From NCBI RefSeq assembly GCF_001571385.1, contig NZ_BCNW01000001.1:310001-374000 (forward strand): a DNA stretch of 64,000 bases. The letters are read 5' to 3'. Under the pieces are notes generated by a model. It searched no databases. It was not told the origin of the DNA and saw only the letters and a list, made by a program, of their open reading frames with translations. Position 1 is the first letter of the stretch, and every line of letters starts with the position of its first letter. Source of the stretch: Methanofollis ethanolicus. GTDB taxonomy: Archaea > Halobacteriota > Methanomicrobia > Methanomicrobiales > Methanofollaceae. The translations under genes were made by a program, and so were the position numbers. This document shows positions 3,152 through 45,919 of the stretch, piece by piece.

Positions 3152-3538
3152 CCCTCGAGCATATCCCAAAACTCTCATTCGTTCCCCTTTCCCGGGATGC
3201 TGGGCTCTGGAGAATGTATCTCATGTTCGAGTCGATGACTCTCTAGATTCCATGACGAGCGGTGCGGATCCCCGCCTTTCCCGCAATCTGAACCAGGGGA
3301 CTGCCTCGAAGGTCTTCGACCTTCTCGTTGCCCCCGGACCCCCGAAAATAGGATAGGACCGGGGAAGGATAAACCCTGCATATTGAAGTAGACTGCCATC
3401 CGCTCCCTATCGTAATGGTGGGGGGACCGGGGGGTGAAACCCCCCGGAACAGACACAAGATCAGGATTTTTTTCAGAACCAAATACCTATCATTCCATCG
3501 GCGGGACAGAGGGTATGATCGGTTTTGGGATGATCTCT
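3152..3538. repeat. Intergenic hairpin repeat, copy A (reverse orientation)
   Basis: A gap of nearly 390 bases between two convergent genes. A hairpin at 3293-3338 has outer arms CCAGGGG and CCCCCGG and an inner stem CGAAGGTC/GACCTTCTCG. It is the reverse complement of the core seen near 19384 and 35560 (GGGGGTCCGGGGGCAACGAG). A second hairpin, CCGGGGGG-TGAAA-CCCCCCGG, lies at about 3427-3447. No coding potential is seen. Confidence 0.7.
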
Positions 3539-19095: not shown

Positions 19096-19317
19096 GGATC
19101 AGGTCTGTCTCTGTTTTGGCTCAGGGGGGATTTTCCTGTTCTGAAGTGGCGGTGCCGGGGACGAAGCCCCGGTACCTCTGTGGGAGAGGCAGGAGATCGG
19201 CGACCTGTCCGGGGGGTTTCGGTGAAGACCGATAGTCTTCTTGACTCCCCACGGTCGCCACTCGAGAATCAGAAATTTTCTCAAGGTCGCTAAAGTTCGC
19301 ACCCTGCCATTAGAATA

Positions 19318-19550
19318 TGGATGGGATGGCAATCTCCCTTCTCAGGATCTCTATTCTTTCTTCCCCGGTTCTATCCTAAGATCGGGGGTCCGGGGGCAAC
19401 GAGAAAGCCATCAGGCTTTCGAGTAGTCCCCCGGTGAGCAGTATGGGGAAGGCGGTGGATCGGTTACACTCCTCCGGGGGGCTGTTGCCCCCCGGTCCCC
19501 CCGCGTTAGGATAGGCAGGGATACGGCAATCTCCCTCCTCATGATTCTCT
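19318..19550 (+). repeat. Intergenic hairpin repeat, copy B
   Basis: The 535-base gap between convergent comDE and argB has no gene. Hairpin 1 (19384-19434) has outer arms CCGGGGG/CCCCCGG and an inner stem GAAAGCC/GGCTTTC. Hairpin 2 (19474-19495) is CCGGGGGG-CTGTTG-CCCCCCGG. A tail GGCAATCTCCCTCCTC (about 19525) recurs near 19327 (one mismatch) and in copy C near 35692. Upstream, a GCCGGGGACGAAGCCCCGG hairpin lies at about 19154. Confidence 0.75.
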
Positions 19551-19605
19551 GATCAATCTTCCCCGGTTCTCTTCTCATTTCGAGGCAGGGAGCGCTTCGG
19601 CCCCC

Positions 19606-35324: not shown

Positions 35325-35818
35325 CGAGCGGGGTGGGGGTTTGGGGGGAAACTTTTTGCCACGCGCACTTTAGAGAACAGAGGTGGTTCTGGAGTCTGTT
35401 TGTTCGATGTCCCGCGCCGGGGGACTATCGCCCCCGCCCTCGAAAGCCTCTGGCTTTCTCAAGCTCGCTCCGCTCGCACCCCGCTCATGATAGGTGGGGA
35501 TAATAGCCATCTCACTCTTCGAAACCCGTGTTCGCACTTCCCTGGCCCTATCATAGGTCGGGGGTCCGGGGGCAACGAGAAGACGAAGTCTTCGAGGCAG
35601 TCCCCCGGCGGGCAGTAAGGGGAAGGCAGTGGATCAGCATCCTGTCCGGGGGACTACGCCCCCGGCCCCCCGCTCAAGATTGAACCGGTGGATGGCAATC
35701 TCCCTCCTCAGGATGAGACTGTTCGCTCTTACGAGATGTTGTCCTTATCCCCAACCTTAGATTTGGAGGAGGATGTCACTCCTCCCCCCAGAATAGTTGA
35801 CGGTCTTCCCGAGACTCT
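35325..35818. repeat. Intergenic hairpin repeat, copy C plus partial copy
   Basis: A gap of nearly 500 bases without genes. Copy C runs from about 35548 to 35717: hairpin 1 (35560-35608) has outer arms CCGGGGG/CCCCCGG and inner stem GAAGAC/GTCTTC; hairpin 2 (35646-35665) is CCGGGGG-ACTACG-CCCCCGG, then GGCAATCTCCCTCCTCAGG. A partial copy at about 35415-35470 has CCGGGGG-ACTATCG-CCCCCG and stem GAAAGCC/GGCTTTC. Confidence 0.75.
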
Positions 35819-45316: not shown

Positions 45317-45919
45317 GTCCTCTCGGTCTTGTGAAATCTGGCATGAGTCCCTGAGGGAGACTCAAGCATCTCGCATGAAAATTGTTCTGAGGAGTTCGTC
45401 TGGTCGACGTGCCTTCCCGCACGCTCGCGCCGGGGGCGCTATCGAAGATCAAAGATCTTCTCACGCTCCCTCTGGTCGTTCCCCCGGGCCCCCGGGATTG
45501 CGATAGGACCGAGAATGCAGAGGGCGGATCGTTCTGAAGGTGGTTTTGTCCTCTCCATCTCCACCATGGGGTGCTCATTGAGAGTCAAAACCTCATGCAA
45601 ACCCGGAAAACGGATCTTCTGGATCATTTCCATGGTCGTCCCTCGGGCTCAGGTCGATATATCCCCCCGGATCCTTTTGAGGGAATGCGCGGATCAACCG
45701 CCTTCCCCCTACAGTTCGCCGGGGGCTCTCAAGCTCGCTGGCGCTCGCTGCCCCCGGGAGCGAACAGGATTTCCTGAGGAGGAAGGTTGCAATCCCACCC
45801 CTATCCTGAGCGGGGAACGAGCGGCAGCGAGTTCGAGAAAACCGAAGGTTTTCAAGTGACCGGGGGCGTAGTCCCCCGGAGCAGGAACTCCATAAAAGGA
45901 ATTCTCCTGGATCACGTTC
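45317..45919. repeat. Intergenic hairpin repeat, copies D1 and D2
   Basis: A 600-base gap between convergent genes. D1 (about 45426-45515) has inner stem GAAGATC/GATCTTC at 45444-45460 and CCCCCGGGCCCCCGGG. D2 (about 45700-45880) has inner stem GAAAACC/GGTTTTC at 45837-45853 and hairpin 2 CCGGGGG-CGTAGT-CCCCCGG at 45860-45879, preceded by GCTCGCTGGCGCTCGC. No gene recognised; short open frames are not protein-like. Confidence 0.72.

Follow-up and report, generated by a model that had tools for sequence, protein, structure and literature searches.

Repeat copies in the window

The window is a 64,000 nt stretch of the Methanofollis ethanolicus genome (C1:310001-374000; the genome comprises 2.71 Mb in three contigs). 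A self-repeat map of this stretch revealed repeat blocks at 3157-3537, 19199-19570, 35411-35730, 45323-45636 and 45758-45899. Judged by the ORF lists only, the copies all seem to be intergenic, and three of the four sites appear to lie between convergent gene ends. An earlier sequence-only reading had given the repeats too short an extent; for example, its locus at 35548-35717 is part of the block at 35411-35730. The copies are composed of G-rich hairpins, here termed slots, and of smaller hairpin units, here termed cassettes, which occupy two fixed sites: site A is the slot loop, and site B is the adjoining junction GGGG/GTCCGGGGGC. The copies themselves, and slots with an empty or short loop, are given without strand.

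The first copy, W1 (3157-3537), matches a TSD-flanked element at 601317-601935 (74% over 384 nt). It includes the TIR-like sequence GGCTCTGGAGAATG (3203-3216), a minus-strand cassette, GAGAAGGTC-GAA-GACCTTCGAG (3305-3326), located by pattern search, and an empty slot hairpin, CCGGGGGGTGAAACCCCCCGG (3427-3447), located by the slot scan. The second copy, W2 (19199-19570), also matches TSD-flanked elements. Its site-A slot hairpin on the plus strand (19390-19434), recognized in the sequence and by both the slot scan and the pattern search, is filled with GAAAGCC-ATCA-GGCTTTC, and the slot scan identified an empty slot hairpin, CCGGGGGGCTGTTGCCCCCCGG, at 19474-19495.

W3 (35411-35730) is the copy at the originally noted locus; over 35537-35639 its identity to several TSD-flanked elements is 81-83%. 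Sequence inspection and the slot scan defined a left-arm slot hairpin with a short loop, CCGGGGGACTATCGCCCCCG (35417-35439). It is followed by a site-B cassette on the minus strand (35440-35478), consisting of the hairpin GAAAGCC/GGCTTTC (35442-35458) and the mini-hairpin CTCGCTCCGCTCG (35464-35476). The same two approaches defined a plus-strand site-A slot in the right arm, CCGGGGG..CCCCCGG (35566-35608), filled with GAAGAC-GAA-GTCTTC (35579-35593), for which a DNA fold of -10.4 kcal/mol (z -2.36) was predicted, and a further empty slot hairpin, CCGGGGGACTACGCCCCCGG (35646-35665).

The fourth site holds W4a (45323-45636), which has a TIR-like left end and matches the TSD-flanked element 1994150-1994644 (75% over 302 nt), and an element part, W4b (45758-45899). 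The slot scan detected two minus-strand slots here, one with a mini-hairpin plus the cassette GAAGATC/GATCTTC (45430-45487) and one with a mini-hairpin alone, CTCGCTGGCGCTCG (45719-45757). W4b contains a plus-strand site-B cassette seen in the sequence, GAACGAGCGGCAGCGAGTTCGAGAAAACC-GAA-GGTTTTCAAG (45816-45857), and an empty slot hairpin, CCGGGGGCGTAGTCCCCCGG (45860-45879), that was also found by the slot scan.

All five stem types listed in the sequence-only reading are present in the window and perfectly paired: GAAGGTC/GACCTTC at 3307-3323, GAAAGCC/GGCTTTC at 19403-19421 and 35442-35458, GAAGAC/GTCTTC at 35579-35593, GAAGATC/GATCTTC at about 45443 and GAAAACC/GGTTTTC at about 45839. The architecture that it drew around these stems requires revision. 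The outer arms are not constant, as one of them is decayed in the copy near 3300, and the variable stem is not always enclosed by them, as the hairpin near 35440 and 45845 adjoins CCGGGGG/CCCCCGG. The supposedly constant second hairpin is the same type of slot with an empty loop, and is less constant than was claimed.

The element family

The repeats are decayed copies of a non-coding MITE that is present in several Methanofollis genomes. On sequence evidence, the window copies are decayed members of this family: they are 66-82% identical to intact TIR-bounded elements, and their ends are at best degenerate. The TIR reads GGCTCTGTAGAA ... TTCTACAGAGCC. The M. ethanolicus genome contains 69 exact 12-mer ends, and a search for the TIR with at most one mismatch found 66 places; the reversed control gave zero in both cases. 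Of 100 candidate pairs of ends in this genome, 36 had an exact TSD at a length of 8 bp. The corresponding number was 1-3 at lengths of 5-7 or 9 bp, and zero at 10-11 bp. At least seven of the eight TSD positions matched in 49% of end pairs, against 1.8% with shuffled flanks. Elements with exact TSDs are 169-954 bp long in M. ethanolicus. One MITE is inserted within another MITE copy, with the TSD CATGAAAC. For the insertion at 1865232-1865765, a relative has the matching site uninterrupted (L151, 94% over 119 bp). The family therefore shows three of the marks by which a MITE is recognized, namely a TSD of fixed length, TIRs and short, non-coding sequence in multiple copies.

The TSDs of the M. 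ethanolicus elements are mostly AT-rich, for example GATTTTTC, CTTTTTTT and GAAAAAAA. The cassette hairpins themselves are the target of several insertions (CGAAAATC, GATTTTCT and GTCAGAAC), and the MITE thus re-invades its own copies.

Our comparison set consisted of 12 genomes of the family Methanofollaceae, all of one genus, which were examined as stretches; some of the relatives are fragmentary MAGs. TIR ends numbered 356 in G007, 265 in G006, 102 in G003, 41 in G001, 16 in G008, 14 in G005 and 4 in G010, with 0-1 in the remaining genomes. The counts in G007 and G006 each suggest more than 100 MITE copies, by a good margin. Cassettes were well above the control in M. ethanolicus, G003, G005, G007, G008 and G010. 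When genome contigs were scanned with a DNA pattern for one cassette form, the sole match was a Methanofollis MAG, and a search of viral contigs for the cassette and TIR patterns found no copy. The element on the 4.7-kb contig C2 of M. ethanolicus (C2:2879-2948) appears identical to one at C1:2556999-2557068; this identity perhaps reflects a collapsed or duplicated assembly repeat.

Slots, cassettes and folding

G-rich slot hairpins make up the interior of the element, which is nearly palindromic: its right arm is an inverted copy of the left. A slot has the form CCGGGGGC-GTAG-TCCCCCGG, or a similar form with CAAAAG or CGTCAG. The empty short loop CGTAG, common to many copies, suggests that the empty slot may be the ancestral state.

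The typical cassette consists of a mini-hairpin and a longer hairpin of 6-7 bp, each bounded by CGA/GAG, and at site A its orientation is the same in 25 of the 26 scorable inserts. The inner arms of the longer hairpin are drawn from few types (GACC, GAC, AATC, AACC, AGCC, AAAC and GGTC). Those of the mini-hairpin, mainly GC/GC, CC/GG and AC/GT, pair in 75/89 cases compared with 29.7 after shuffling. Approximately two dozen cases of a double hairpin nested within or between cassette parts were observed, with nesting up to three levels, and in several of them the insert splits the 5' arm, as in GAGAA^..^GGTCGAAGACCTTCG (L121).

When 35411-35730 is folded as DNA, the left slot is predicted to pair with the right one, with the cassettes as hairpin branches. 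Single slots fold with z values of -2.4 to -2.8. The fold of the whole element exceeds that of shuffled sequences only modestly, both as DNA (z -1.59) and as RNA (z -1.06 and -2.14), and G-rich composition therefore supplies much of the stability.

Pairing and covariation of the cassette stems

A pattern in which only GAGAA and TTCGAG were fixed, with any inner arms allowed, occurred at 189 places in the genome-wide scan, compared with 4 for the reversed control, and BLAST returned 46 and 67 matches dispersed over the M. ethanolicus genome; one BLAST-based repeat map sampled 386 kb of this genome. The expectation of the sequence-only reading that further copies exist, with paired inner arms, was thereby borne out: the inner arms were perfectly complementary in 104 of the 124 scored M. 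ethanolicus matches, that is, pattern matches with an inner length of 9-14. Covariation was measured in 45 distinct 22-mers, non-pairing ones included. The score was 0.401, compared with 0.182 +/- 0.017 when the 3' letters were shuffled; none of 500 shuffles reached 0.401, and sliding the register reduced the score to 0.01-0.13. In the same set, 45 cells with both sides changed were observed against 15 expected.

One proposal is a selected RNA structure: the hairpins would belong to small RNAs, to terminators or to the 3' ends of mRNAs, with stems that co-evolve by compensatory substitution. The highly significant pairing and covariation are in line with this proposal, as is the apparent position of three of the four window copies between convergent gene ends in the ORF layout. 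However, a search of the window against Rfam at gathering thresholds gave no match, and the whole element folded as RNA is only modestly better than its shuffles. The wobbles in the stems also argue against it. When each distinct module whose stem departs from Watson-Crick pairing at a single position was counted, six had G-U and six had A-C, the latter being G-U on the other strand; neither strand is thus preferred, and selection on an RNA from one strand would favour one kind. Moreover, the inverted-repeat build of the element places cassettes on both strands, which speaks against a single functional RNA strand.

The lack of strand preference is what would be predicted by quasipalindrome correction, in which strand switching during replication copies one arm onto the other and generates paired changes without selection. 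This process would also account for stems that are mostly perfect in M. ethanolicus despite their differing sequences. The two proposals make predictions about how a given stem changes between species, and for this the orthologous copies of sister species are informative.

Orthologous loci in sister species

For M. ethanolicus loci, counterparts that align at about 86-97% were identified in G005, G008 and G010. Automatic stem scans took in coding hairpins or kept few module stems, and slots were therefore compared directly, at approximately ten informative loci. At these orthologous loci, cassettes were shown to change as units, by gain, loss or exchange. Compared with the M. ethanolicus locus at 2368 kb, L248 has an extra 41-nt unit of mini-hairpin plus hairpin, flanked by GGGGG and CGTAG and present only in the relative. 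Both sides align apart from the unit, and there is no flanking duplication beyond one base. Because the bases specific to the ortholog are retained in the flanks of L248 (TTCGGGGG), the probable event is that the unit by itself was inserted or excised. At 15.6 kb (L125/L146), the relative alone carries an additional array of 149 nt with the 8-nt direct repeat CGGGGGCA. Cassettes differ at both sites A and B at 1239 and 1619 kb (L133 and L135) and at site B at 551 kb (L225), and a cassette has been exchanged at 1536 kb (L217).

The slot near 1645.6 kb has three fillings in three species: GAAAACC-GAA-GGTTTTC in M. ethanolicus, GAAGGTC-GAA-GACCTTC in G008, and in G005 GAAAGTC-GTTA-GGCTTTC together with another unit. 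The orthology of the G008 allele is based on its position beside one common gene and on similar flanks. M. ethanolicus and G008 differ here by three stem base pairs (six bases), and the loop and immediate flanks are identical. A six-base change in the stem with constant loop and flanks would not be compatible with point mutation at a divergence of a few percent; it looks like ectopic conversion from another copy whose loop and flanks are the same. The exchange at 1645.6 kb and the L248 unit point different ways, and for this reason we retain both the conversion route and the insertion/excision route.

Orthologous module stems seldom drift base by base, and where they do the changes are one-sided, as in GAAAATCTTTGATTTTC vs GAAAACCTTTGATCTCC at 1619 kb. 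A strict set of 92 orthologous stem pairs contained three one-sided changes and no compensated change; this set supports shuffling only weakly, because it is small and missed the swapped slot at 1645.6 kb.

These observations weigh on both proposals. Co-evolution of an RNA by compensatory substitution is difficult to reconcile with unit gain, loss and exchange at orthologous loci and with base-by-base changes that are few and one-sided, and we regard it as quite unlikely to be the source of the pattern. Quasipalindrome correction predicts single paired changes; orthologs instead differ in blocks of paired changes, which match the alleles AACC, GGTC, AGCC and GACC that are common in the pool, they also gain or lose whole cassettes, and one-sided changes persist in them. 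As the principal cause it therefore seems unlikely, although it may act together with swapping.

Exchange of hairpin units as the probable explanation

We estimate a probability of roughly three in four that the differences among the hairpin stems are best explained mainly by whole-unit swapping of DNA hairpins in the MITE interior. The unit changes at orthologous loci, together with wobbles that show no strand preference, lead us to this explanation of the pattern as mostly the shuffling of ready-made DNA hairpins. In this model, the cassettes come from a small pool, and units are gained, lost or replaced at the two fixed sites. The change would occur at the DNA level: the dispersed copies, of which there are many, could exchange units by ectopic conversion or hairpin-promoted template switching, or the cassette itself may be mobile. 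The observed covariation would then arise when different cassettes are compared as though they were one hairpin.

The sequence-only reading had taken covariation to be the hallmark of selected structure. The covariation itself stands, but the inference of selection does not, because the aligned stems are mostly different cassettes, and stems at orthologous loci change by gain, loss or exchange of whole hairpins. It is conceivable that part of the covariation could reflect selection for DNA or RNA structure. The hairpin structures are kept intact, perhaps as extruded DNA, and the fold may have some role, for example in replication or mobility.

We tentatively raise a more specific possibility, which we consider doubtful at present: that cassettes are mobile double-hairpin elements of 40-50 nt, which would insert precisely into the loops or stems of other hairpins and recognize DNA structure over sequence. 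If true, mobile cassettes would nest hairpin in hairpin by a mechanism that has no prior description. More generally, strong base-pair covariation can arise without the co-evolution of one RNA, via unit exchange of hairpins among repeats, which calls for caution in covariation-based RNA discovery where genomes are repeat-rich.

Transposases and related elements

An autonomous partner with the same ends was not found among the transposase families searched (IS6, IS1595, ISL3 and IS256). Transposases of the IS6, IS1595 and ISL3 families were absent from the 12 Methanofollis genomes. IS256 gave 32 matches in G011, but the ends of these elements bear no relation to the TIR. As candidate parents, long stretches bounded by TIRs were inspected in G001 and G003, and they have no evident transposase ORF. 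G011 itself holds approximately 30 near-identical IS256-family copies (L270 and others) of 387 aa, with the ends GACAGTGTAACGAA/ACACTACC, and is without the MITE. In M. ethanolicus, a broken IS256-family fragment (C1:1901578-1901778) is located within 1 kb of two elements bounded by TIRs.

The hairpin structure and the GTAG in the slot loop, which is the tag of one REP superfamily, could indicate REP/REPIN-like palindromes mobilized by a Y1 (RAYT, TnpA-REP) single-strand transposase. REP/REPIN sequences associated with RAYT, which are GTAG- and CGTC-tagged (PMC3733652, PMC3116915), are likewise dispersed short palindromes with a GTAG motif. In contrast, the Methanofollis element has TIRs and an 8-bp TSD, which point to a DDE-type transposase, and its tag is in the loop rather than at the hairpin foot. 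Y1 (PF01797) is absent from the cassette-rich genomes of M. ethanolicus, G003, G005 and G010, and present in four genomes with few or no cassettes. Since the M. ethanolicus genome has no Y1 transposase, explanations of the REP type fail, and we consider them highly improbable.

Prokaryotic MITEs are known in archaea, including Sulfolobus, Halobacterium and Haloquadratum, and are characteristically foldable (reviewed in PMC10969869). Like QMITE2 of Coxiella and the Sulfolobus MITEs, the Methanofollis element is short, TIR-bounded, flanked by target duplications and present in many copies; it has no evident transposase ORF, and its transcripts would be foldable (PMC10969869). Unlike them, it has G-rich slots and two fixed sites with exchangeable, nested cassettes. 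A limited literature search found no published description of the family, and a MITE family with nested, exchangeable hairpins is now documented in a methanogen genus.

Pneumococcal BOX elements are composite modular repeats with a variable middle part, in which the modules are arranged in tandem. The Methanofollis element is similarly modular with a variable middle, but BOX modules are not known to be nested in hairpin loops.

The nearest likeness of the cassettes is to the double-hairpin elements (DHEs) of fungal mitochondrial DNA, which were first described in Allomyces (Paquin et al. 2000, as cited in PMC10085805 and PMC2800124). DHEs are tiny paired hairpins, two adjacent and GC-containing, which are scattered, vary in presence between close species and are proposed to move without flanking duplications. 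The cassettes likewise comprise two adjacent hairpins, with conserved CGA/GAG ends, and vary in presence as units (L248). No flanking duplication is reported for Allomyces DHEs, and the 41-nt Methanofollis insertion likewise has none beyond one base. DHEs are mitochondrial, whereas the cassettes occupy fixed sites inside a transposable element of an archaeal chromosome, and the likeness drawn here is a functional one. The Methanofollis MITE family represents a natural system for following the origin and movement of mobile hairpins across sister species.

Throughout the genome, cassette stems typically lie between a CGA and a GAG (e.g. 35576-35596 of the window), an arrangement that would give tandem G.A/A.G mismatches on one strand. 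Together with mini-hairpins of the GCGAAGC type, these flanks are reminiscent of unusually stable small DNA hairpins.
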